Virus record (IMG/VR): IMGVR_UViG_3300043256_000021
Span: 1-20,437 of that record
DNA length: 20,437 nucleotides
Direction: 5' to 3' (one strand)
DNA from: a virus
Shown here: positions 2,034 through 20,361 of the stretch, piece after piece
Position numbering within the stretch: the first letter of the stretch is position 1
How the letters are laid out: every line of letters starts with the position of its first letter
The notes under the pieces: model-generated
What the model was told of the DNA's origin: nothing
Seen by the model: the letters and a program-made list of their open reading frames with translations, nothing else
The model's database searches: none
Program-made: the position numbers and the translations under genes

Positions 2034-3037
2034 TAGAGTTGCCCCGCTACTAGTTCTGCTGCCTTACCTATCTTGCCAAACAGCGTAATGTCCTTCCGAC
2101 CTCGCACCATCTGTGCCGCACCGATGTCAACGTCAGTCAGGGGTGTGCCTGTCTGCGCCAGCCATACCGCACGCTCATCAGCATCCTCTGCACCCATACC
2201 AAGCTGTCTCAGCCTGGCTACCTGGTCGGGGATCCAACGAGACTCCGAAGCTGACTCGGGCCTGAGTGTGTGAATCCTCTTGTAGTCGTCCTGTTCACGG
2301 ATAGCCTCAAGTACCACCTGGTTCGGATCGATAGTCTCACCACCGGAACGCGCAATGTCCCAGGCTTGCCTGTGCGCAGCGCCATACATGTCCGAGTACT
2401 TCTGTACCAGGTCCTCAGCCTCATCGCCTGTCAAGGTGTTGAGCATGGACTTCACTGTGTCCTCAATGACTTCACGCATAGGGCTGACGTACACGGGGCC
2501 ACGTGCCCCGCCTCCGCCGCCTCCGCCTGGCTGACCCCACAGTCCCTCGTCCGCACCTAGCTCAGCGAGCACCTCGGGACCAGAGTTCAGCTTCTCTGCC
2601 AACCAGCCTATCTGCTGATCGGAAAAGCCCTTAGCCTGCGTACCCTGCTCAAGGTTTGTGTTCGACATACGCAGCGGCGTGATCAGCTTCGAGCGGAACC
2701 CCTGCTCGTCTGGATCACCGAACTGAATGTTCCACCAGAGTTCCGGCCTAGTCGTCATGTTTGCCCAATACGCCTCTACCGCAGCAAGCTCCTCGCCTAC
2801 CAGTGGACTATACCCTATGCTCTCAGTATTGGGTTCCCATACCTCTGAACGTTCTGGTACGGTCTCCCAGGGAAGCAGGCCCGTCTTGTCTCGGATCTCC
2901 TCAGCGGCACGGTCCCACCAGTTGCTGTCCAGGATCGGACGCTTGGCCCTCTGCTCTGCAGCAAGCTCATCGTAGTCTACTTCAGCTTCACGCTTCGCCC
3001 TCTGCTCCGCTGCCAGTCTGTCGAATAGTCCAGCCAT
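2033..3037 (-). CDS. Probable virion-associated protein with poly-Gly linker, 334 aa
   Basis: The frame stays open upstream to 3121, but the ATG at 3037 is preferred: it forms a TAATG overlap with the end of the giant gene and has GGGAG 12 bases upstream. The protein starts MAGLFDRLAAEQRAKR, and LAAEQRAKR is repeated at residues 25-33, a small internal duplication. A run of seven glycines (about residues 172-180) separates an N-terminal Trp-rich part from a C-terminal helical part containing MREVIEDTVKSMLNTL. No catalytic motif was recognised. Two domains joined by a flexible linker, coupled translation and position between the giant protein and the 518-aa protein suggest a structural or injection-complex role. 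That role is inferred from context only. Confidence 0.6.
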   Translation of the reverse strand: MAGLFDRLAAEQRAKREAEVDYDELAAEQRAKRPILDSNWWDRAAEEIRDKTGLLPWETVPERSEVWEPNTESIGYSPLVGEELAAVEAYWANMTTRPELWWNIQFGDPDEQGFRSKLITPLRMSNTNLEQGTQAKGFSDQQIGWLAEKLNSGPEVLAELGADEGLWGQPGGGGGGGARGPVYVSPMREVIEDTVKSMLNTLTGDEAEDLVQKYSDMYGAAHRQAWDIARSGGETIDPNQVVLEAIREQDDYKRIHTLRPESASESRWIPDQVARLRQLGMGAEDADERAVWLAQTGTPLTDVDIGAAQMVRGRKDITLFGKIGKAAELVAGQL

Positions 3038-6000
3038 TATTCCAAATCTCCCTTGTAGTTGCCGAGCAACTGTGCGACGATAGCCTCCACCGTACTCTCT
3101 TGGAACACCCTCATGCCCCACGTAATGAACTCGTCCCGAAGGTCGGGCCTACCAATGAACTGCTCTTGCACCTTGGAGAACACCCAACGCTGCTGCACAT
3201 GTCCAGCGTTACTAAGCGGCGACTTCTCCAGCGCATTCAACTGCCTATGGACAGCCACAGCGTAAGGCACCAGCCACTCCATCGAGATGGGTAGGGCACC
3301 GAACTGCTCGAAGTTCTCAATCGGGTAGTTGCTGATATTCTCCAGCACCCCGAACTCTCCCTCGGCTCTGAGCCTACGGTCGAACTCATCGTTGATGCGG
3401 TTCTGATGGTCGTCCCTCGCCTTGCGGGAACCGTCATTCATCTCAATGTACCCGCCACCGATACGGTACTTCCGTGCAAGCAGTGCATCCTGATCGGACT
3501 TCCAATCGAAGATCTGCCGTGCTATTTCCGTCGTTGGAAGGTATGCCTTAGCCTCGGGATAAATCTCAATGATGTGATCCACATCCTCCCAGGACAGCCA
3601 TTCAAGCTTGTCGGCAAGCTTAGCGTCAGCCAAGGACTTCTTGTGATCGTAGTCCATAGCGTTCCAGCTACGTGCCGCAGGCGAAGCGAATGCCACACCT
3701 GCAATGATAATCTCCCTGCCGGAGTTCTCTCTACGCCAGCGGGCGATAGAGTTGTAGGCAGTGGTGAGTTCCTCGCCGGTGTCAGCATCCTCAACCTTGG
3801 CATACTGCAACTGCAACTCATCGCTGTAGTCGCCCCAAGCAGTCCAGTACTCATTTATGATCTGCTGCCTAGGTGACACTTCCCAATCGGCATAGCGACC
3901 ATCGTTGTACACGTCCACTGCCGCATAGGCAGAGTCACGGATACCGATCAGCATGCCACGTATCCTGCGTGCCTCCTGAGGATCACTCGGGAACAGGTCA
4001 AGCTCGATCTCCTGCATCGCTATGTCCATAGCCTCAATGATCTCCACCTGGTTGTTGTGTGCGAAGTCCACGTAGTTGTCAGCGACCTTCAGGCTGTGCT
4101 CGGCCCAAGCGCCATCATTCACGATCTCGTCTTCCATCTCTAGCGCACGCCACTTCTCGTCATACAGTTCACTGATGTCCTTCTGACGGGCACCGTCCTG
4201 AATCATCAACTGTGCCTGCCGCATCGGGTCGTTCCCGTACTCCTCGATGTAGATCATCTCCCGCTCCACCTGAATCAGCATGGACCGGATCTTGTACCGA
4301 AGCACGTCGATGGGGAGGGGCAGGATCTCGCCTGCCTCCACCTGAGCGAAGTACTCGGTTATGTCGGCAGCCCACACCGGGAGGCCAGTGCCACCCCAAT
4401 AGGTGCGGGGAGCAATGGCTGCCAGAATGCTAGACCTGCCGCCGTGCTGGCGCAGGAACTCTAGCTTAGCCGCAGAGCCAGTATCATCCGCAGCCCAGGC
4501 TGCCACCATGCTCCATGCGTCCCTGGCGTTGCCGCTATCGAACGGAGTAGGCATAGGGTTGCCCTCAGACCACTGCTCCGCAGTGACACGGGACTGGTGG
4601 TAGTACTGGCGTAGCGTAGCTGCCTCATCAGGCATCTTCGGGTTGAACGGCATAATCACACCGTACACCGTCTGTAGGAATGAGCGGGAAGCTGCGATCT
4701 CCTTCGTTTCCTTGGCGATCAAGTCATCAATGGCGTGCAGTTCATCCTGCAGTGCCAGCCACTCAGAACTGTCCACTTCCTTGCTGATCATCTCTTCGGC
4801 AATCTCACCCGAGCGGGTGAGTACCCCCGTCTGCATCTCCAGCATGATGATGGCGTCTGCCCTAGCGGTACCCATTCCGGTACGGCCAGTCGGACCCATC
4901 AGGGTATTTGGCAGCCACATAGCCGCACCATCCTCACCATCGTTCAGCCACAAGCCTATAGTGCGGGCCATGTTCGACACGACCCTAGGCGTGTAGTCCG
5001 ACACAACCTCCTGGAGTGAGTCAGTCATGCCGTACGGGAATAGCAGATTCTTGATGAACTGTCCTGCCAACGTAGTGCCCGGGTGCATGAACGTTATGCC
5101 TGCAGGCACAGTAATGGTGGAGAACCCCAGGGTTCCCGACTGCAGTTGCATGAACTGCTCTTCTGACACTGCACCAGACTCAAGCAGCACTGCACGATTC
5201 GCCGTCAAGAACTCAGTCTTGTCGGTTACGTTCTCGGTAGCGAGGTACAGTTCGAGGTTCGTTTCGTCTCCCACCACACTCGGCTCAGATGTAGACGTGA
5301 ATGGCAACTGTGCTGTGAGCGCAGAAGCGGGGTACGCCATTGCGGGGTTCAGGCCGAACTGCATACGTGCGGTCGGCAGGGTGCCACCGCCCCTACCGAA
5401 GAACTCGTACGGGTGATTGAACCGAAAGTTCACTTCATCGGGGGTTAGGTCCAGATCAGCAGACGTGAAGATCTCGGCGATCTGCTCTACCAGGATAGCC
5501 GGTGCCATCAGTGCAAGGTGGCCTGCACGAGATACTGCCTGTCCAACTAGGTTGTCCGTATGTGGGTCGGCAGCGAACTGCATGTCCCAGCCTACCACTG
5601 CACCGTCACGGTCATACCGTGGCTGCAGCAGGCCATTTCTCTTTAGTGTGGTGAACACGTGATCGAACGTACGGAGCATCCTAGCGTGCCCGATACCCAT
5701 GCCGCCCTGTGCGGCAGGGATGTTCCAGGTCCAAGCCTTTACGATCTCGTACTGTGCTGCGAAGAACGGGAAGATCTCGTTCATCTTCTTGAGGTACGGC
5801 GTCTGTGCCTCCACGAAGAAGAAGGTCTTCTGAACGTGCTCCAACGCCTTCTGGTTAGCGGCGAAGTTCGCACCCTCCTCAGTCATGCCGAGGCGAATGT
5901 AGTTCTCCTTGTACCGCTTGAAGGTAGTGATGAACGCAGGCCTACGCTGCAACTGTGCAGGCAGTTCATGCCCGAACTTGTTGAGTGCCCACTGGTTGTA

Positions 6001-10883: not shown

Positions 10884-12557
10884 CTATGCTCCTAGGAGGG
10901 CTTGCGGCGGTACGCCCGGTAGTGCCTCCGCTGGTGCGGTGGCTTCCGGAGGCGGCTGGGTCAGGCCGGTTTCGGGTACCGGCTGCTCCACAGCCTGCTG
11001 CGACTGAGCAACGAACGCCTCCTCGTACTTGATAACGGCCTCGGACCAGGACAGGCCATCCTTTTCCATCTTGGTGCGGAACTTGGCCCACAGCACCATG
11101 TCGATAGCGCCGTTCTGCGCCTGTGCAAGGAACCCTTCCATAGCTATATTGTCGATCTTGTCGAGGTCAAGTTCTCGCATGATGCGCTGGGCGTCGTTTC
11201 CGCCAGGCATCGATTCGATCGCCATCCTCTTCGGTTTGAGTTCACCCTGCCAAGCCTGTACATTCTCAAGGAACGACTGATACGATCCACCAACTCCAAA
11301 TCCATAAGCGACTCGGACGCCTCTGCGTCCATTGATATCCTTCGCAGGCGTGTACTCTTCGACATTGCGCTGACCCTTGATCGTAACGGAGATGGACTTC
11401 TTATCCCCACCGTACAGTAGCTCATCCATCTCAAGGCTGACAGCCACAAGGTCCTGATACCCTGCCTGTATCGCATCCCAAAAGCGAGCAACCGAGTTGT
11501 CTACCGAATCGTTCAGAGAGTCGAGGGTCTTAGCGCCCACGTAGGCACCCTTCCCGTCAACCTCACCCTGACGAACCTCGGGGTTCCGGTTCAGGATTCG
11601 CTGATACTTCTCCAGAGTACTCAAGTCTCTGTCAACCTGAATGTTAGCTGGCGGGGTAAGCTGACCGATCTGTCCGTGCTCGCTGAGCGTAGCTACGGCA
11701 TTCGGACCAAGCGTCAACTCCCCCGTCAGACCCTTCACCCACGTGATCGGATAGATGACCCGATCCAGGTAGGCGATCTTCTGTGTGATGATGCGGGACA
11801 CCGCAACCATCAGCGAAATCTGTTCCTTGAACTGTGACTTGCCAGTCTTGTTCGGGGAGAACGTGGAACGGTACACACCTGGCACCATGCCCAGCCCGTG
11901 CTGCGCCACCTTCTGCCCATCCGGACCGACCTGTGCCCATACCTGGTCGTCCAAGTACTCGTACACAATCACGTCAGACTGCACAACCTTGCCTTCCTTG
12001 TCTACGCCACGGGCTAAACCCAGGCGTACCGCCTCTGATCTGATCATCTTCGTCTCGAAGATCAGATCAGACAGTTCATCAATGTAGGAACCGATGCGCC
12101 GCTTCGCACCGGGGAAACAGTTGCGGGGGTCACGAGCCTCGAACCGAGGCGTCTTAGACTTGCCGTCAGGCACAACGATAGCTACGAACTTGCCCAACCC
12201 CACTAGATTCCATGCGTTAGTGAACAGGAACGCCGAATCGAACGGCCTAGCGTCCTGGAAATATCCGGTAACGATCTTCTCCAGCTTCGCCGCCTTCCGA
12301 ATGGAGGCCTGCGACAGGTTCATAGGATCAACCTGCACCTCAGGGGCACGTGCAACGGTCTGCGCAAGGTCATCCCATGCGAGACTGATGAAGTTGACTT
12401 CATGCCTAGGCGTGTTCTTGGGGAAGAAGTCCACAAACTCCTGTGGTAGCTCACCCTCATACACGCTAGCAAGGTTGAACATATCTTCAAGATCATCGGC
12501 CATTGCGGCCTTACGTACCTGAACAGTTGCTCTCAGGCTTGCATACAATTTGGACAA
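10884..12557 (-). CDS. Portal protein
   Basis: A 557-residue product directly after the large terminase, the usual place and size for the dodecameric portal, through which DNA is packaged and ejected. The start is taken as TTG at 12557, because GGAG sits six bases before it; the first in-frame ATG (12503) has a poorer site. The central region is portal-like: a basic segment near residue 148 (GAKRRIGSYIDELSD), a core (FSPNKTGKSQFKEQISLMVA), and a long helical stretch ending LDSLNDSVDNSVARFWDAI before the crown-like C-terminus. The last 45 residues are a Pro/Gln/Ala tail. P2 lies just upstream and gives a leader of only about 14 bases. The assignment rests on synteny and general features; no single diagnostic residue exists for this family. 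Confidence 0.75.
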   Translation of the reverse strand: MSKLYASLRATVQVRKAAMADDLEDMFNLASVYEGELPQEFVDFFPKNTPRHEVNFISLAWDDLAQTVARAPEVQVDPMNLSQASIRKAAKLEKIVTGYFQDARPFDSAFLFTNAWNLVGLGKFVAIVVPDGKSKTPRFEARDPRNCFPGAKRRIGSYIDELSDLIFETKMIRSEAVRLGLARGVDKEGKVVQSDVIVYEYLDDQVWAQVGPDGQKVAQHGLGMVPGVYRSTFSPNKTGKSQFKEQISLMVAVSRIITQKIAYLDRVIYPITWVKGLTGELTLGPNAVATLSEHGQIGQLTPPANIQVDRDLSTLEKYQRILNRNPEVRQGEVDGKGAYVGAKTLDSLNDSVDNSVARFWDAIQAGYQDLVAVSLEMDELLYGGDKKSISVTIKGQRNVEEYTPAKDINGRRGVRVAYGFGVGGSYQSFLENVQAWQGELKPKRMAIESMPGGNDAQRIMRELDLDKIDNIAMEGFLAQAQNGAIDMVLWAKFRTKMEKDGLSWSEAVIKYEEAFVAQSQQAVEQPVPETGLTQPPPEATAPAEALPGVPPQALLGA

Positions 12558-12573: not shown

Positions 12574-12612
12574 CGTTAGTGTAACAACCAAATCGGGATT
12601 TTATTCCCAATT
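12574..12612 (-). promoter_or_regulatory. Promoter-like motif copy P2 (leftward, before portal)
   Basis: The minus strand has GGGAATA (12608-12602), 16 bases, then GTTACAC with TACACT at 12583-12578. The GGGAATAA encodes the last residues and stop of the terminase gene (TGG GAA TAA), so promoter and coding end are merged. Between the two boxes it agrees with copy P1 at nearly every base, far more than chance allows. Predicted transcription starts about 14 bases before the TTG of the portal gene. Confidence 0.68.
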
Positions 12613-14541
12613 CCGTAGTGTGTCTAGGTTTATTGTTACTTGCTGGTCAAGTATGTGTTGTGGTGCATTCGGGTCTAGTTGCTTAGGGGCTATGATCCTT
12701 GAAACATCTATCAGTGCAGCAATAGAAAGATCAGCTAGCCAAAGCCCCATCACAGTATCATTGGGTTCTGCTGGGTAGCGAACCAACTGTGACAGCAAAG
12801 CTTCCGCCTTCTGTCTGTCTTGTGGTAGATTATAGGGCACAGAAAACCGTCCTTGTTCCATATGTCGGGACAATAGTGGAATACCCATCGAAGGGTCCCA
12901 CTTCGTGTCTGTTGTGAACCATTCGTCAATGATGAACCTATGCTTGAGAGACGCTTCCTTGAGACGGGGGTCCCTGGCAAGCGCCTTCTGATAGGCGTTG
13001 ATCTCGATACGTACCCTATCTACCCTGAACGTCGATGCGTACAGGCCGATAGTGTCAGGATGCATCTCTGGTGACTGGCGCTTATGCCAATAGTCCACAA
13101 GATACCTGCGCTCGCACACCTTGCAAGCCTGCAGCACAATGAGGGCAGACTCCGAAGTTCCCTTTTTCTCCCCCGAGGCAGGGTCAAACCCTATAACACA
13201 GAACAGGTTGTGCGGCGATCCGCAACAGAACTGTACCTTGTATCCGAATGAACGATTGTAATCAAGTACGCCAGAGCGCTCCTCATAATGATTGAACGGT
13301 AGATACAGGCCCGTATCGGGGCTAGGAACAGGCTGAGGGTACGGATGCCTGATGACTTCTGGCCGGAAGTACTGCAACATGGACTGCGAAGCGTCCTGAT
13401 TGTAGCAAACCTCATAGGTGATGTCGCCCAGGGAGCGACGAAACTGCTCCAAGTAGTTGAACGTACGCATAGAGGCCCACAGAAGGCAGTGTTCGCCGTG
13501 GCGATCCTTCTCTTCCATGTCATCCTCAAGGGGCAGGCATACCTCATAATCGTGAGCCTTCTGCTTCACGAAGAAGATGTCGTTGTCATGGTCGTCATCC
13601 ATAGCCTGATAGGCATCCCCGGTAGGAGATGGCTGATGAGAGCCAATCCCGAGCAGGGGTGTCCACGGTTCACGGCGGGTCATAAGCTGAGACTTAACCC
13701 ACAGCACATCGTTAAACACCTGGGTTGGGGACAGGGATGCCTTCAGGTCGAACATATCGTCACCAAAGATGAAGTCAGCATCGAGGGACAGGATCGTGAC
13801 GCCCTTGCCGATAGCGGTTAGTGTCGGTGTACGCATGCGAGTTACACGGGTAGAAACCACGAACGAATTCTCGGACCATGATCCTTCGTTCTCGAACGGT
13901 CCGTAGTACTCAATCAGCTTCTCATTCGATTCTAGTTCAAGCTTCACGAACTTGACAGTCAGCTTGGAGATGTCGAGCTTACCTCCGCACCACAGGATAC
14001 GAATGTCCGGATTGCGGCAGATCAGCCAGAGGATAACATGGGCAGCCAGGTCCGACTTGCCGAATCTCGGTGGTGCAAGCAGGAAGATGGTAAGCATCTG
14101 TTCCGGATCTTTCACCCACTCGTTCAGGTCTACGTCGTTGAGGGCTTCGGTCAGGCCCAGGTAGTCGATTACCCATTGTGGCGGCACTTCCTTTAAGGCT
14201 AGGGTACGCACCAAATAGAACCATGCCAACTGGTGCTTCGGAGTTTCGTAGCGGAGGTTACGTGGGGCACGAAACATCGTGGACCGAAACTCAGGAAAGT
14301 TGTCAGGTTCTAAGAGGCGTTCCGCTTCGGGTTCGTATTCTTCTGTGCGTGCACCATCTGCTGCATTGGCGGCGAGGTCATTCTTGATGGTGGCGTTAAC
14401 CGGGGGCTTCTTGAGGTCGAAATGGTCCATCACAGCAAGGCCAATGCGCTTCAGCGACCATTGGCCTTTCAATCCCAACTCGAACCGCACAGTCCTCGAC
14501 GCAATGAAGCGACGACGACTGTGCGTGTTGTAGTCCTTCAT
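12601..14541 (-). CDS. terL: Terminase large subunit (DNA-packaging ATPase/nuclease)
   Basis: A 646-residue two-domain motor protein. The ATPase half has a Walker A loop APPRFGKS (residues 156-163), a variant lacking the usual first glycine, and a Walker B stretch DFIFGDD ending at residues 261-262. The nuclease half shows the three expected acidic positions of the RNase-H-like fold: D453 in GFDPASG, E513 in RIEINAYQ and D604 in LADLS. The protein powers packaging at the portal and cuts the concatemer. The ATG at 14541 directly abuts the stop of the repeat-protein gene (TAA then ATG), with only a weak AGAGAG upstream, so translation is probably coupled. No small terminase gene was recognised next to it. 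Confidence 0.9.
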   Translation of the reverse strand: MKDYNTHSRRRFIASRTVRFELGLKGQWSLKRIGLAVMDHFDLKKPPVNATIKNDLAANAADGARTEEYEPEAERLLEPDNFPEFRSTMFRAPRNLRYETPKHQLAWFYLVRTLALKEVPPQWVIDYLGLTEALNDVDLNEWVKDPEQMLTIFLLAPPRFGKSDLAAHVILWLICRNPDIRILWCGGKLDISKLTVKFVKLELESNEKLIEYYGPFENEGSWSENSFVVSTRVTRMRTPTLTAIGKGVTILSLDADFIFGDDMFDLKASLSPTQVFNDVLWVKSQLMTRREPWTPLLGIGSHQPSPTGDAYQAMDDDHDNDIFFVKQKAHDYEVCLPLEDDMEEKDRHGEHCLLWASMRTFNYLEQFRRSLGDITYEVCYNQDASQSMLQYFRPEVIRHPYPQPVPSPDTGLYLPFNHYEERSGVLDYNRSFGYKVQFCCGSPHNLFCVIGFDPASGEKKGTSESALIVLQACKVCERRYLVDYWHKRQSPEMHPDTIGLYASTFRVDRVRIEINAYQKALARDPRLKEASLKHRFIIDEWFTTDTKWDPSMGIPLLSRHMEQGRFSVPYNLPQDRQKAEALLSQLVRYPAEPNDTVMGLWLADLSIAALIDVSRIIAPKQLDPNAPQHILDQQVTINLDTLRNWE

Positions 14542-16455
14542 TTACTCTCTGTCGCTAGAGCTTCCTGTGGCTCTCGCCGCAACAACCACTGTATGGCTGA
14601 GCGAAGTCACTGTAGACGTAATCTTTGCTATATCCCCTACCGGGTCTGTAAACACGACCACGAACGGATTCTTACGTGTGCCTGAGCCGGTAACCGCAAT
14701 GTTGGCGATGTTGGACAGCGCTGTAAGGCGAGTGTCGATCAGTGCCGCATTGGCCGAGTACGCAATAGCTGCAGTCGTCTGTCCAGCATACGATAGTGTA
14801 AATGTGCCAGTATCACCGTCTACGACGATTTCCTGAGTCTCATTCACATTACTAACGCCAGTGGTATCTTCCACAACGCTGACCGTGACTGCCGCACCCG
14901 TAAGGGCTGTGGTGTCTGCTGTCATTATCGCCAGGTCCGCACCGCCAGGGGTCACGAACTCTACGGTGTACGGTCCACCGGCAGAGCCGGTAACGGTAGC
15001 GGCCGTAATCGAGGACAGCAACTCAAGTGCTGTCTCAAGGTCTGCGGCTGATACGTTGTACGCAACGCCGCTCGACATCTCCTGACTGTCATATGTCAGC
15101 TTGTATGTGCCGCCTGTACCGTTGTTTACGGTCACGACCTGCTGCTCATTCACTGCATCAACACCTGGGGTGTCGTCTGCAACAGTGGCGGTAGCCGTAA
15201 TCGTAAGGCTGTCGGTTGTGGTAATCTCGGCTTCCACACCTGACGGATCGGTGAACGCAATCGTCCACGGATCACCGGAAGTACCTGTACCCGTAACCGC
15301 AACCGTAGTAATCGAACTAATCAGTTCGAGCGCCGTCTTTAGGTCCGCAGCACTCACATCCCAAGCGATACCTGCTGTGGTCTGAGCTTCATGCGTTACG
15401 GTGAACGTGCCGCCATCAGCAAGGCCACGATGTATCGTCTGAATCTCATTCACAAGGTCAACACCCGGAGTCGCTACTGCGATAGTAGTAGAAGAATCCA
15501 GAAGGTTGGCATCGTCGGCTGTAATGGCTCCAACGTTACCCGCAGGATCAGCGAACGTGATGATCCACTTATCGCCCACATCCCCAACACCGGATACTTC
15601 CACATCTGTAATGGTGCTGAGTTCCTCTAGTTCGGTTTCTAGATTATCAGCAGCGATGTCATAGTTAAGCGGATCGGTTGTCTGACCGCCAAAGGTCAGG
15701 GTAAAGTTGCCGCCTGTAGAACCATTGTGAATGTTGACAATCTCGTACACGTTGTCTGCGCCTTGCTGCGTAGTGGCAATCGTAGTCGAACCAGCGAGCG
15801 TGGCGTCCACGATAGCTACTGACACCGCACCTGCATCCCCTGCCGGGTCTGCGAAGGTGATAATCCACGGGGAACCTGACGTACCTGCACCGGCCACCGC
15901 AACGTCCGTCACACCGTCAATGTTCGTGAAGTTTGTATCCACAGTAGCAGAGTTGGCGTCGTACGCTGTTGAAGCTGAGTCGTTTCCGCCGAACCCGAAC
16001 GTGATGTTTCCGGTGTCGGCATCTGTGTAGATCGAAGTAACCTGATATACGTTAGCTACGCCCTTCACCGATTCGGCAAGGGTTACGCTAGACGTAACAA
16101 GGCTAGCCCCGTCAGCGGTCATAAGCGCAATATCGCCAGCGTCGTCATCGAATGCTACGTCCCAATCACCAGTAGAACCAGTAACGTTCACTGTGGTAAC
16201 CGTAGAAAAGTCGGCTTCGATCCTTGTCTTAAGGGTGGCTGCTACCGCATCAAATGCGATGGCGCTTGTCGTGTCACTGCCTAGCGTGAGCGTAAACGTC
16301 CCGCCAAAGGCATCGTGAGTAACAGTTTGTACTTCTAGTATCTCGTCGGTACCAGACGACCTAACGTCAATCACAGCACTGCCATCAGCAGTAGCCCTAT
16401 CTTCGGGCCGTCCACGGGTGCGACCCGGACGTTTCCCGAAATGTACTGTAGGCAT
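14542..16455 (-). CDS. Six-repeat beta-rich phage surface/decoration-like protein, 637 aa
   Basis: The start is the ATG at 16455 (MPTVHFGKRPGRTRGRPED), with a perfect AGGAGG 8 bases upstream; the frame extends to 16503 but that start has no ribosome site. After a 36-residue basic leader come six tandem repeats at about 37-132, 133-232, 233-331, 332-431, 432-533 and 534-637. Each has the pattern VNExQ, then GGTFTLTxxGQTT, then AIAYDxxAADLxTxLExLSxI, then VxVTGxGTxGxPWxIxFxDPxG, then a Thr/Ser-rich end. This beta-rich repeat is common in phage and bacterial surface proteins and is probably an Ig-like or similar sandwich. Repeats may serve in capsid decoration, fibres or adhesion to the cell. 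Its position just before terL, with its own promoter-like copy P1, suggests high late expression. The specific role is inferred. Confidence 0.75.
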   Translation of the reverse strand: MPTVHFGKRPGRTRGRPEDRATADGSAVIDVRSSGTDEILEVQTVTHDAFGGTFTLTLGSDTTSAIAFDAVAATLKTRIEADFSTVTTVNVTGSTGDWDVAFDDDAGDIALMTADGASLVTSSVTLAESVKGVANVYQVTSIYTDADTGNITFGFGGNDSASTAYDANSATVDTNFTNIDGVTDVAVAGAGTSGSPWIITFADPAGDAGAVSVAIVDATLAGSTTIATTQQGADNVYEIVNIHNGSTGGNFTLTFGGQTTDPLNYDIAADNLETELEELSTITDVEVSGVGDVGDKWIITFADPAGNVGAITADDANLLDSSTTIAVATPGVDLVNEIQTIHRGLADGGTFTVTHEAQTTAGIAWDVSAADLKTALELISSITTVAVTGTGTSGDPWTIAFTDPSGVEAEITTTDSLTITATATVADDTPGVDAVNEQQVVTVNNGTGGTYKLTYDSQEMSSGVAYNVSAADLETALELLSSITAATVTGSAGGPYTVEFVTPGGADLAIMTADTTALTGAAVTVSVVEDTTGVSNVNETQEIVVDGDTGTFTLSYAGQTTAAIAYSANAALIDTRLTALSNIANIAVTGSGTRKNPFVVVFTDPVGDIAKITSTVTSLSHTVVVAARATGSSSDRE

Positions 16456-16489
16456 AGGTAGACCTCCTAGGAATATCCTTGCATATGCA

Positions 16490-16528
16490 ATAGTGTATAA
16501 CAACTAAATCAGGATTTTATTCCCACTA
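16490..16528 (-). promoter_or_regulatory. Promoter-like motif copy P1 (leftward, before repeat protein)
   Basis: The minus strand has GGGAATA (16524-16518), 16 bases, then GTTATAC with TATACA at 16499-16494. The bases GATAGT directly upstream also occur at copy P5. It lies between a terminator and the AGGAGG-preceded start at 16455, the classical position for a promoter. The expected leader is about 30 bases. Confidence 0.72.
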
Positions 16529-16607: not shown

Positions 16608-16928
16608 TTACTCTTCTAGGTCTGGTACTAGTGTCAACTGTACGGCAGCCTTGTTGATCTCTAGTTCGGCAACAACAACCTTTAGCTGCTCTTCTAGGTT
16701 ACGGGCATACAGTTCCAGCTGTGCCCTGCCAACATCACCAGCAACCTGCACCTGTGCGGTGACTACTGACTTGTCAACAATGCCCTGACCTATGATGTAG
16801 GTAGACACCACGAGTATGATGCCTGCGATTGTCTCGGGCGACAGATCGTATCCTGTACCTTCGGCAATAGCAATGCTGAATACGGTACCTACCGCTATCC
16901 AGAACTTCCTGCTCTTGAACTTACTCAT
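16608..16928 (-). CDS. Holin-like small membrane protein, 106 aa
   Basis: ATG at 16928 with GGAGGAG 7 bases upstream. The N-terminus is positively charged (MSKFKSRKFW), followed by a hydrophobic helix at residues 9-23 and a second at 33-50, separated by GTGYDLSPE. The C-terminal half is a soluble, probably coiled-coil segment with alternating charges (RNLEEQLKVVVAELEINKA). Two short helices with a basic start and LSPE turn are typical of small phage holins, which permeabilise the cytoplasmic membrane at lysis. No endolysin is seen beside it, so lysis function is likely but not proven; another small membrane protein is the alternative. The gene overlaps the preceding one by 8 bases and is the last before a terminator. 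Confidence 0.6.
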   Translation of the reverse strand: MSKFKSRKFWIAVGTVFSIAIAEGTGYDLSPETIAGIILVVSTYIIGQGIVDKSVVTAQVQVAGDVGRAQLELYARNLEEQLKVVVAELEINKAAVQLTLVPDLEE

Positions 16929-17845: not shown

Positions 17846-17914
17846 GGGTGACGCCGGGAATCGAACCCGTCACGATGGAATCACAACCCACCTGCCCTCC
17901 CAGGGAACGTCACA
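17846..17914 (-). tRNA. tRNA-His (GTG), slightly degenerate
   Basis: The anticodon loop TTGTGAT lies on a stem GTGGG/TCCAT, whose first and last pairs are G-U. The T arm is CGGG-TTCGATT-CCCG, and the acceptor pairs GTGACG with CGTCAC. The D arm is short and irregular, and the total length of 69 bases is below normal. No CCA is encoded. The discriminator base is C, as in bacterial tRNA-His, but the extra 5' G partner is not clearly present. Confidence 0.68.
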
Positions 17915-17915
17915 G

Positions 17916-17986
17916 TACGAATGGTAGGAGTCGAACCCACGTCCCCGGGATGTAAGCCCGGTGCTACGCCTCTCAGCTACACTCGC
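17916..17986 (-). tRNA. tRNA-Val (TAC)
   Basis: Full cloverleaf: acceptor GCGAGTG with CATTCGT, D arm GCT/AGC, anticodon stem CCGGG/CCCGG with loop CTTACAT (anticodon TAC), T arm GTGGG-TTCGACT-CCTAC. The discriminator is A. No CCA is encoded. It lies one base from tRNA-His. Confidence 0.88.
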
Positions 17987-17991
17987 TTATG

Positions 17992-18063
17992 CTCGGGGGC
18001 AGAGACTCGAATTCCGATCTGATGGTTCAGAGCCACCTATCCTTCCAGTTGGACGATCCCCGA
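17992..18063 (-). tRNA. tRNA-Gln (CTG)
   Basis: Acceptor TCGGGG with CCCCGA, D arm GTCC/GGAT with GG in the loop, anticodon stem GGTGG/CCATC with loop CTCTGAA (anticodon CTG), T arm with TTCGAGT loop and one A-C mismatch at its top. A 5' T and discriminator G are usual for tRNA-Gln. No CCA is encoded. Confidence 0.82.
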
Positions 18064-18070
18064 TCGTGCA

Positions 18071-18148
18071 GGGGCGGGAGAACCGGCCCGATGCTTGCGG
18101 CAGGCCTTCGCCCATCAGCTAAGGCCGGTACCGAAACTTCCCACCCCC
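18071..18148 (-). ncRNA. Structured 5' RNA at the start of the P5 transcript
   Basis: Begins at the base where transcription from P5 is expected. An outer stem pairs GGGG and GGGA (148-139) with TCCC and CCCC (079-071). An inner perfect 7-bp stem ACCGGCC/GGCCGGT (129-123 with 088-082) encloses a further small fold, with GATG/CATC and GCG/CGC or alternatively GCCTT/AAGGC. It is not a tRNA: no TTCRA loop or 7-base anticodon loop fits. It may protect the tRNA transcript, act as a regulator, or be processed off. The two alternative inner folds are notable. Confidence 0.4.
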
Positions 18149-18152
18149 ACGC

Positions 18153-18190
18153 CAAGTACAACACCGGAACGGTCTCGTTTATTCCCACTA
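18153..18190 (-). promoter_or_regulatory. Promoter-like motif copy P5 (leftward, before tRNAs)
   Basis: The minus strand has GGGAATA (18186-18180), 17 bases, then GTTGTAC with TGTACT at 18160-18155. The preceding GATAGT is shared with P1. It points to the tRNA and small-gene unit and stands back to back with P4, 28 bases between the two GGGAATA boxes. Its spacer is one base longer than in P1-P3. Confidence 0.65.
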
Positions 18191-18210
18191 TCTCCAGAGA
18201 TTTGTGCAGG

Positions 18211-18250
18211 ATTCGGGAATAAAAACGGGTCGAATGGTGTTATACTAGGT
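18211..18250 (+). promoter_or_regulatory. Promoter-like motif copy P4 (rightward)
   Basis: GGGAATA (18215-18221), 17 bases, then GTTATAC with TATACT at 18241-18246. It is the only copy on the plus strand and heads the structured noncoding region and rightward small genes. Transcription is expected to start near 18253. Confidence 0.68.
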
Positions 18251-18365
18251 AAAGTAGCTAGCTACGAGCCGGCAGGCCCGCCAAGGGCCAGCAGGCGCTC
18301 CTACCTTCCCTCCCATAAGGGATCGGGGGTACTAGCGCACTTCCTTCCCAAGGAAGGGCGTGCTA

Positions 18366-18402
18366 TGCACTGATCCTCTGTCCAAAACAGAGGATCAGTG
18401 CA
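18366..18402. repeat. Perfect 16-bp inverted repeat
   Basis: TGCACTGATCCTCTGT (366-381) and its exact reverse complement (387-402) flank a 5-base loop, CCAAA. It is the strongest hairpin in the window. No T run follows on either strand, so a simple terminator is unlikely. Confidence 0.85.
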
Positions 18403-18505
18403 AATCGCATCAGTATTCTACCACTACCATGTAGGTACATCGGCCACAGTCACAATCTGATGCAATCCAAGCCCTATATGCAACGTTTAGACGTAAATAT
18501 GGGCA

Positions 18506-18646
18506 GGTACACATACATACGTACCATATACCCCCCGAAGGTGGGGTGGGTCTTCACTTCTTCATTTCCCCCCCCTGTATGGTTTCTTGGGATTTTCTGG
18601 TACATACCCATGTATGTATGTACGCATGTATACACATATGCATACG
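18506..18646. repeat. Alternating ATAC/GTAT-rich inverted repeats
   Basis: ACATACATAC (511-520) is complementary to GTATGTATGT about 100 bases downstream. Local stems also exist (GGTAC/GTACC at 506-525, and GTACATAC/GTATGTAC near 600-622). In between are C-rich and G-rich runs (531-549 and 567-575) that can form ACCCCCC/GGTGGGGT. Its composition differs from the rest of the region. It could be part of an RNA fold or a DNA element. Confidence 0.5.
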
Positions 18647-19036
18647 GTTGCGACCTTGGCCACCGACTGTGCGCTGTGGCGCACACGCATCGGGGGGAAT
18701 GATGCGAATGCATCATAGACACCGCTTCGTATCCATGAGACGATGTCCTTATCAACTCCCCGCACATAGGGGAGTGGGCCAAGGAGCCGGGGACGTGCGC
18801 ACGATGGCGCACCGCAGTCACCGCAGGGTGTCGTGTCCCGACCGATAGGAGCCAAGCCTGTAGGAATCGTAGCCTCAGGTGTCAACGCTGAGAGTAGCTG
18901 TAATCCTTTACTAGTTGGGTTGCCGATGCTGCGGACCTGTGAACGTCACATCGGAATGGTGTGATGCGATAGGTTGGCGGCACCGCTAGCCACAGGTAGG
19001 ACCGTTCGGTATTCCTGCCGTTCGCCGCACCCTGTG

Positions 19037-19071
19037 ACAGTGATGAAACCTTTCGAGGTTTCAGAACGATG
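19037..19071 (+). repeat. Repeated stem-loop module, copy A
   Basis: ACAGTGAT, stem GAAACCT/AGGTTTC with TTCG loop (045-062), then AGAACGATG. It matches copy B at 19127 in the flanks and most of the stem. The flanking CGCAC and GTGTG can pair around it. Confidence 0.7.
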
Positions 19072-19126
19072 GAGTGTGAATCCTTTGGCCGTCGTGACCC
19101 AACGCTATGGTATGAAAGTATGCTCA

Positions 19127-19161
19127 ACAGTGACGGAACCTCATCAGGTTCCGGAACGATG
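19127..19161 (+). repeat. Repeated stem-loop module, copy B
   Basis: ACAGTGAC, stem GGAACCT/AGGTTCC with CATC loop (135-152), then GGAACGATG. Relative to copy A, the second stem pair changes from A-T to G-C on both sides, while the loop is free to vary. It is enclosed by CCAACGC/GCGTTGG (19099-19105 with 19165-19171). Confidence 0.7.
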
Positions 19162-19287
19162 TAGGCGTTGGCACATACACAGTCGAACCCGATCCACGTC
19201 GGTTAAACAGTGGGAGAATTACTGACCAGCTACACACACCTATGACACGGTGATGCTGGTTGGTACTGCGTTAGCTTTAGATAGCAA

Positions 19288-19315
19288 GCACGCACGAGCT
19301 TCGGTTCGTGCGTGC
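19288..19315 (+). promoter_or_regulatory. 12-bp UUCG hairpin in leader of the 98-aa gene
   Basis: GCACGCACGAGC and its partner strand close a C(TTCG)G tetraloop, with one G-T pair. It ends 26 bases before the AGGAGG of the next gene. No T run follows, so mRNA protection or a processing site is likelier than termination. Confidence 0.55.
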
Positions 19316-19348
19316 GAGGGTATCTCAAGCTACACAGAGGAGGATACT

Positions 19349-19645
19349 ATGGGTACGAACCTGAAGGGTCGTGCAACGGCAGAGTTTGATGTCTTCTCAA
19401 CTAACCGTGACGGTCAGTTAGAGATTACCATTATGGCCGACTCAACCAGTGAGGAATGGAACGAGTCAAGTGATACGGTACATGGTACCGTTGCTCTTGG
19501 CCGTCTTGTTGCTGAAATTGGCAAGGTTGCCACGCCAGTTACTGCCAGCGAACGTCGGTTCACTGAGCAGGTATCGCTGTATGTTGCAGCGGGGCTTGGC
19601 GAAGACGAGGCGAATGCCTTGGCAGAGCAGGTCAACACAATCTAG
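19349..19645 (+). CDS. Small acidic protein, 98 aa, unknown
   Basis: The ATG at 19349 has AGGAGG 5 bases upstream; the frame is open back to 19250, but that part has no ribosome site and crosses the strong leader hairpin. The product starts MGTNLKGRATAEFDVF. Its N-terminal half is beta-like (GQLEITIMAD) and the second half helical (LGRLVAEIGKVATPVT, and SLYVAAGLGEDEANALAEQ). No cysteine, membrane segment or named domain was seen. It is the first protein gene of the rightward unit and is followed by two hairpins starting at its stop codon. Confidence 0.7.
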   Translation: MGTNLKGRATAEFDVFSTNRDGQLEITIMADSTSEEWNESSDTVHGTVALGRLVAEIGKVATPVTASERRFTEQVSLYVAAGLGEDEANALAEQVNTI

Positions 19646-19688
19646 GTGTGAACCTAGCTAGCGCCGGTGAGTATCACTACTCACCGGC
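19642..19688 (+). terminator. Tandem hairpins after the 98-aa gene, possible weak terminator
   Basis: CTAGGT/ACCTAG (642-657) begins at the stop codon, and an 11-bp perfect stem GCCGGTGAGTA/TACTCACCGGC (663-688) with a TCAC loop follows. The bases after it (TCTATGGTATGTT) are only moderately T-rich, so it may attenuate or set the mRNA end rather than fully terminate. Confidence 0.45.
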
Positions 19689-19722
19689 TCTATGGTATGT
19701 TCAACTATGAAAGGACAACCTA

Positions 19723-19953
19723 ATGCATGTAATCGATTCACTGTCGGCTGGTCCGATAGATGGAACAATCTCATGCAAGTGCGGATACTCCAAGTACACC
19801 GTATATCCCAACGCAGGTTGGGGCCGTCGGAGTGTGGGTATCCGCCGCTTGAATGGGAAGACGAAGGCGCAGTGGGTATGTGACAAGTTGGTTACGTACT
19901 ACATCACTCACGTTGCACGTGAGCAGCGGCTTACTCAGGTTCATGGTGCATGA
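19723..19953 (+). CDS. Small basic protein with CKC motif, 76 aa, unknown
   Basis: ATG at 19723 with AAAGGA 7 bases upstream. The product is Tyr- and Arg-rich: it starts MHVIDSLSAGP, then has ISCKCGYSKYTVYP and GWGRRSVGIRRLNGK, with one more cysteine in AQWVCDKL. Two close cysteines and a later one hint at metal binding but do not make a complete zinc knuckle. No family was recognised. It overlaps the following gene by 4 bases (ATGA), a sign of coupled translation. Confidence 0.6.
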   Translation: MHVIDSLSAGPIDGTISCKCGYSKYTVYPNAGWGRRSVGIRRLNGKTKAQWVCDKLVTYYITHVAREQRLTQVHGA

Positions 19954-20165
19954 TGCACTACCTGTATATCGAAGCGAATAACGGTGACGTGAGTGATATC
20001 ATTGCGGTGTGCTCAGACCACTGTGCACGCAGGTATGCCGACCTGAATGGCATAGAGTATCGGGGTTGGAACGGGTGCCATGAGCTAGAGTTCGCAATGC
20101 TATGCGAGTACTGCGATACCATAATGCCGGGTACTGAGGGCGTACAACTTACTATTTACTACTGA
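19950..20165 (+). CDS. Small Cys-rich, zinc-ribbon-like protein, 71 aa
   Basis: ATG at 19950 in an ATGA overlap with the gene before. The product is acidic with cysteines arranged as CSDHC (residues 21-25) and CEYC (52-55), plus Cys43 and several His. Two cysteine pairs about 26 residues apart fit a small zinc-ribbon or treble-clef fold, which in phages often means a nucleic-acid or protein adaptor. The C-terminus is TEGVQLTIYY. No direct ribosome site is clear; coupling probably supplies ribosomes. Confidence 0.6.
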   Translation: MMHYLYIEANNGDVSDIIAVCSDHCARRYADLNGIEYRGWNGCHELEFAMLCEYCDTIMPGTEGVQLTIYY

Positions 20166-20175
20166 GGAGGCAGTA

Positions 20176-20361
20176 ATGATGCACATGATTGAGTTGCATA
20201 GTGAGGAAAGCCCTACGGGCTTTCCGAACGATGACGACTTGCACGTATTCGATAACGTGGCACAGGATGAGGCTATCCATACGTTGTATGCTGGTATGTC
20301 CGATGACTATATGCCTACATGGGAGAGAGGTGAGGATGATGATGACGCTATTAGTTCCTGA
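20176..20361 (+). CDS. Small very acidic protein, 61 aa, unknown
   Basis: ATG at 20176 with GAGGAGG 5 bases upstream. The product is highly acidic, with NDDDLHVFDNVAQDE and ending ERGEDDDDAISS, and has no cysteine. Small acidic phage early proteins sometimes mimic DNA or bind host proteins, but nothing here shows this directly. The end overlaps the next gene by 26 bases in another frame. Confidence 0.6.
   Translation: MMHMIELHSEESPTGFPNDDDLHVFDNVAQDEAIHTLYAGMSDDYMPTWERGEDDDDAISS

Follow-up and report, generated by a model that had tools for sequence, protein, structure and literature searches.

The noncoding junction between the two divergent arms of this phage genome probably encodes a new structured viral RNA, which judged from its sequence would be a regulatory leader of unusual length or else a free large RNA. 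At slightly less than even chances we favour a long untranslated structured leader of the rightward (early) transcript that is possibly processed. The best-supported feature of the region is a repeated hairpin element with constant flanks, AGUGA-(8-9 bp hairpin)-GAACGAUG.

The window, i.e. the whole stretch of DNA that was analysed, is a complete virus record of 20,437 bases. Late genes occupy its minus strand (Table 1). The gene at 10884-12557 would encode the portal protein, as it adjoins the terminase gene and has a relative in the virus genome G001. From the gene order we take the small plus-strand genes from 19349 onward to be early. The junction at 18064-19348 sits between these two arms. 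The terminase shares ~23-27% identity with its counterparts in Beephvirinae phages of Streptomyces. The nearest relatives, G001 (46 kb) and G002, form one IMG/VR lineage that shares the gene order, with identities of 40% for the terminase and 41-43% for the portal protein. Close relatives sought via the terminase were not found, family-level searches returned G001 and G002 only, and prokaryote genomes yielded none. G001 carries neither tRNA genes nor any sequence resembling the noncoding RNA.

Coding potential in the junction was judged from a codon score for which the late genes served as the training set; genes reach about 0 to +0.40 and wrong frames fall below -0.1. All ten ORFs of at least 40 aa within 18064-19348 scored between -0.14 and -0.70, which is the range of wrong frames. 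The longest ORF comprises 115 aa, a length that was equalled or beaten in 36% of shuffled sequences. ORFs of at least 80 aa numbered seven compared to 1.8 in shuffles, and none of the seven scored as coding. The codon scores rule out a protein-coding reading in any frame.

At its upstream end the region is headed by one of five sites with the pattern GGGAATA-N16/17-GTTRYAC, which are located at 469 (-), 12608 (-), 16524 (-), 18186 (-) and 18215 (+), where letter shuffles of the window predict 0.03. This family was found via the word GGGAATAAA (4 sites vs. 0.04 expected). Every site precedes a gene or tRNA unit, except that at 18215, which precedes the noncoding region; the two central promoters stand back to back. 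Since the promoter at 18215-18246 is a member of this family, position 18253 is a sensible start, and transcription would begin near it. The letters and the spacing of the actinobacterial SigH consensus GGAAT-N17/18-GTT are present in all five phage sites, which resemble the sigma-H/sigma-R promoters of actinobacteria (PMC10012870). In contrast to these, the phage sites additionally share an A after GGGAAT and RYAC after GTT. Both genome arms seem to be read by one alternative-type sigma factor of either host or phage. An actinobacterium is the likely host because of the terminase relatives and the promoter type.

Upon folding, the plus strand of 18253-19340 reached a minimum free energy of -463.7 compared to -378.8 ± 8.8 for shuffled sequences (z -9.7; 0 of 60 shuffles as low). 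For the minus strand a z of -8.1 was obtained. A separate run on 18253-19252 gave -10.4, while six late coding stretches of equal length ranged from -0.4 to -5.0. Omitting the first 150 bases, which include the perfect 16-bp hairpin, left z values of -6.9 (+) and -5.4 (-). The 5' part (18253-18650) is equally stable on both strands, with z -7.5 (+) and -7.9 (-); the stretch 18830-19240 folds on the plus strand only, with z -3.8 (+) and +0.1 (-). Over 18701-19300 the plus strand is favoured by up to 4.2 z units, where late coding DNA shows a standard deviation of 1.1. This strand argument is only moderate, because other early stretches swing in both directions. Hairpin density carries on past 19340, and the early coding sequence 19301-20100 folds equally strongly, with 400-nt z values of -4.5 to -7.5 (+) compared to a mean of about -1 for late genes. 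Strong folding is therefore a property of the whole transcript start and by itself no proof of a giant RNA. The initial annotation had described a promoter-headed, noncoding and hairpin-packed region of about 1.1 kb with no credible gene until 19349. This description is borne out by the promoter family, the codon scores and a folding z of about -10. Its count of about twenty stem-loops is fair, given that some 35 predicted helices with 4 bp or more have a mean probability of about 0.5 or higher.

Table 1. Features of the window around and within the noncoding junction.
Feature	Position	Strand	Remarks
Terminase large subunit	12601-14541	-	phrog_38, E 5.7e-32
Protein of tail-type repeats	14542-16503	-	tail-protein-like domains phrog_10909 and phrog_2839; between terminase and holin genes
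Holin	16608-16928	-	
Three tRNA genes (His, Val, Gln)	17846-18063	-	
Divergent promoter towards the tRNA genes	18155-18186	-	same GGGAATA family
Promoter heading the RNA	18215-18246	+	GGGAATAAAAACGGGTCGAATGGTGTTATACT = GGGAATA-N17-GTTATACT; GGGAAT-N18-GTT; also extended TATACT -10
Strongly folded RNA without coding signal (leader or large RNA)	18253-19335	+	z -9.7 for 18253-19340
5' domain with strong hairpins	18253-18404	+	includes perfect 16-bp hairpin 18366-18402; both strands equally stable
Multibranched domain with several hairpins inside	18645-18789	+	closed by CGGUU/AGCCG and CCUUGGCC/GGCCAAGG; pair probabilities 0.61-0.97
Long irregular hairpin	18918-18991	+	helix probabilities 0.82-0.99; within the plus-strand-favouring stretch
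Element copy 1	19038-19071	+	CAGUGA-(UGAAACCU UUCG AGGUUUCA)-GAACGAUG; on outer helix
Branched domain enclosing element copy 2	19085-19206	+	helix probabilities 0.69-0.98
Element copy 2	19128-19161	+	CAGUGA-(CGGAACCU CAUC AGGUUCCG)-GAACGAUG
Long terminal hairpin with cUUCGg loop	19272-19332	+	P 0.88-1.00; ends just 5' of the ribosome-binding site
First early gene after the RNA	19349-19645	+	98 aa; preceded by AGAGGAGG; codon score +0.27
Perfect 11-bp hairpin after the first gene	19663-19688	+	without T run
Element copy 3	20199-20233	+	UAGUGA-(GGAAAGCCC UAC GGGCUUUCC)-GAACGAUG; own outer helix; inside early ORF 20176-20361

The element was recognised in a 38-base repeat at 19037 and 19127, which is a hairpin whose 8-bp stem carries a 4-base loop and whose invariant flanks are AGUGA on the 5' side and GAACGAUG on the 3' side. 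A pattern search found copy 3, whose stem has 9 bp and whose loop has 3 bases, and nothing further in 1.15 Mb of other loci. The ORF that hosts this copy has a gene-like codon score of +0.30. All three copies have the same orientation and agree at each of the 13 flanking positions; when the window was shuffled 60 times, no pair of hairpins had more than 11 of these in common. Among the three copies four of the eight stem pairs are changed on both sides and none is broken. When copy 3 was omitted from a covariance model built on copies 1 and 2 and a copy on the contig L131 (see below), the model found it with 32.4 bits (E 2.6e-7). Each copy is predicted to rest on an outer helix, and the AGUGA/GAACG internal loop could form A.G, G-C, U-A, G.A and A.G, including two sheared G.A pairs. 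Because the contig ends at 20437, further copies may lie beyond it. Visual inspection of the element for a kink-turn or a hammerhead led us to discard both, since a closing stem suited to a kink-turn is missing and Rfam provides no match.

DNA relatives of the region in phages and plasmids were not found above chance. No homologue was found in these searches, and the covariation that was seen is that among the internal element copies. For the element itself, a double-element pattern gave ten chance matches in IMG/VR, all without stems. The single-element pattern CAGTGA-N20/21-GAACGATG matched 120 stretches there, a single one of which (L131) has a perfect 8-bp stem; for one such stem in 120 we estimate a chance probability of about 0.05. 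The L131 contig (4.8 kb) encodes a serine recombinase and a DNA methylase, and two of its small ORFs look to us like XRE-type regulators. The element lies in a noncoding island of ~600 bases at 2400-3050 (-) (z -8.1), which is located between the regulator, recombinase and methylase genes, is GC-rich within an AT-rich contig and reads as ending in an intrinsic terminator. For this island cmscan names no Rfam family, its local alignment with the phage RNA is no better than shuffled, such that nothing is shared but the element, and a search with it in phages and plasmids returned nothing. In the model alignment that includes L131, six of eight pairs are changed on both sides, with the L131 flanks being matched by construction. 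We regard L131 as a weak lead only. A GG/CC variant of the element gave 22 matches in prokaryote genomes with no stem above 6 bp, which is about chance level, and the element model added no convincing copy, neither among 24 records of phages and viruses nor among 396 genomes of actinobacteria. In its own right, the L131 island is an unclassified candidate for a structured RNA.

GOLLD is a large structured RNA of phages that is often encoded near tRNA genes, and ROOL is a large structured RNA of phages and prophages found near tRNA islands (PMC12286853). The initial annotation had proposed a giant phage RNA of this kind, because the region is long, lies in a phage and is close to tRNA genes. 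These three traits are generic, and that of the tRNA genes is weak: they are located 190 bases from the RNA in divergent orientation, on the opposite strand and behind a separate promoter. Comparing the window with the covariance models of Rfam release 15, among them the two that the annotation had suggested for a check, only tRNAs scored above the gathering score, and up to E 10 chance microRNA models alone were added. GOLLD (RF02032) gave no match at E 10, although the filters might miss a member that has diverged strongly; its 416-position Rfam model matches nowhere in the window, and no conserved 3' region of GOLLD was recognised. ROOL (RF03087) gave no match at E 10 either, which is a weaker negative with an uninformative control, the control genomes being also without ROOL. 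The present RNA further differs from GOLLD in that it is apparently co-transcribed with genes, and from ROOL in that no terminator was found at its 3' end. Of the proposed giant RNA, a promoter-headed, untranslated and strongly structured RNA of ~1.1 kb is well supported by the sequence; its assignment to the GOLLD/ROOL kind stays hypothetical, given the missing model match, the missing terminator and the recurrence of the element in a downstream gene. We do not file the RNA under GOLLD or ROOL because neither model gives a match and because location in a phage near tRNA genes is a loose trait, weakened here by the opposite strand and the separate promoter. A mode of action similar to theirs may nevertheless apply.

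Downstream of the last hairpin the ribosome-binding site of the gene at 19349 is unpaired in the local fold. The 98-aa protein has no Pfam match and no phage relative by tblastn. On the plus strand no terminator-like site was found between 18560 and the start of this gene, and the hairpin at 19663-19688 may possibly form the transcript end. Because of the lack of a terminator-like site, the open ribosome-binding site directly after the last hairpin and the recurrence of the element in a downstream gene, we prefer a leader over a free giant RNA; the equally strong folding of the early coding sequence adds to this preference. Transcription would start near 18253 from a promoter type that is common to other phage operons, cross ~1.08 kb of structured RNA and then, as the terminator is lacking, enter the gene at 19349. 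The leader would act as a folded RNA, whose function most probably resides in the recurring element, i.e. outer helix, AGUGA/GAACG internal loop and 8-9 bp hairpin. One protein or complex may bind at every copy on the transcript. Most likely the leader would serve to control the early transcript in cis, either via processive antitermination as for nut/put or via RNA processing or stability. The leader may also be cut off and persist as a free RNA. The nut sites of lambda and the putRNA of HK022 are hairpin elements with conserved flanking letters on early transcripts near the promoter; put comprises about 70 nt with two stem-loops and occurs once per early operon, the two copies being alike in sequence (PMC9378689). 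The present element resembles them as a repeated hairpin with conserved flanks in a phage transcript that the gene order suggests to be early. In contrast to nut/put, it is a single hairpin of unrelated sequence that occurs three times on one transcript over a distance of 1.2 kb, and antitermination by it is putative.

For a leader, copy 3 within an early gene is what one expects of a cis site on the transcript, and the plus-strand-only folding of 18830-19240 counts in the same direction. Against a leader, 1.1 kb is very long, multibranched domains such as 18645-18789 look too elaborate for a mere series of cis sites, and no homologue supports the structure. A weak terminator-like site at 18539-18560 lies inside the supposed leader, termination at the 3' end may occur even without a T-tailed terminator, and in copy 3 coding sequence and element could overlap by chance. 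The alternative of a large structured RNA that stands alone as a new class and works like GOLLD and ROOL, being abundant in infection, released from the early transcript and folded into a particle or scaffold, is possible but rather unlikely in our view. Length, folding, multibranched domains, an own promoter and the nearby tRNA genes in a phage genome point to it, and the structured island on L131 that ends in an intrinsic terminator is a weak hint of a wider class. It is opposed by the lack of any GOLLD, ROOL or other Rfam match, by the 3' end without terminator, by the continuation of folding and element into coding sequence, by the tRNA genes being on the other strand, and by an L131 match that has the chance probability given above and shares nothing else. 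Leader and free RNA are not mutually exclusive, provided that the leader is cleaved off and retained. The more specific idea of a new class of large phage RNA that is partly defined by the AGUGA/GAACGAUG hairpin, occurs in unrelated mobile elements (the phage and L131) and acts as a free structured RNA in infection appears improbable.

The location between two arms, the equal stability of both strands in the first 400 bases, which also speaks against a leader, and the perfect 16-bp inverted repeat would fit a DNA-level element at the divergent junction, such as a replication origin or a packaging or recombination site that consists of cruciform-prone inverted repeats. We consider this very unlikely, as neither iteron-like direct repeats nor an AT-rich stretch were found, 18701-19300 favours the plus strand, and the three element copies have one orientation and conserved letters outside the stem. 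Least credit, close to that of a DNA element, is given to a row of separate small RNAs or cis elements that has no overall fold and consists partly of remnants of lost genes. Most confident helices are indeed local, with only 25% of the bases having a single partner at P > 0.9, and 18404-18600 is barely structured in 200-nt windows; yet there is no coding trace in any frame and a single promoter heads the whole region.

To our knowledge, very large structured phage RNAs are few and their functions unknown. If the region is a free large RNA, it would be a 1.1-kb RNA outside the known families whose defined start and mutable repeated element offer a testable handle on large-RNA function. In the case of a leader, the element would be a new repeated RNA signal, to be added to the few phage RNA elements that direct transcription or the fate of RNA.

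Three observations concern neighbouring or related sequences. Upstream of the tRNA genes, the noncoding stretch 18062-18160 (-) forms a single long hairpin whose base comprises 12 bp (MFE -47 kcal/mol, z -2); this may possibly be a leader of the tRNA precursor. In G001 the terminase gene directly follows a holin-like gene, without the intervening repeat protein seen at 14542-16503 in the window. The G001 contig ends (L088 1-640 and L090 11382-12017) repeat each other with high but imperfect identity, and one small gene is present at both ends; this would be a terminal repeat or a tandem duplication.
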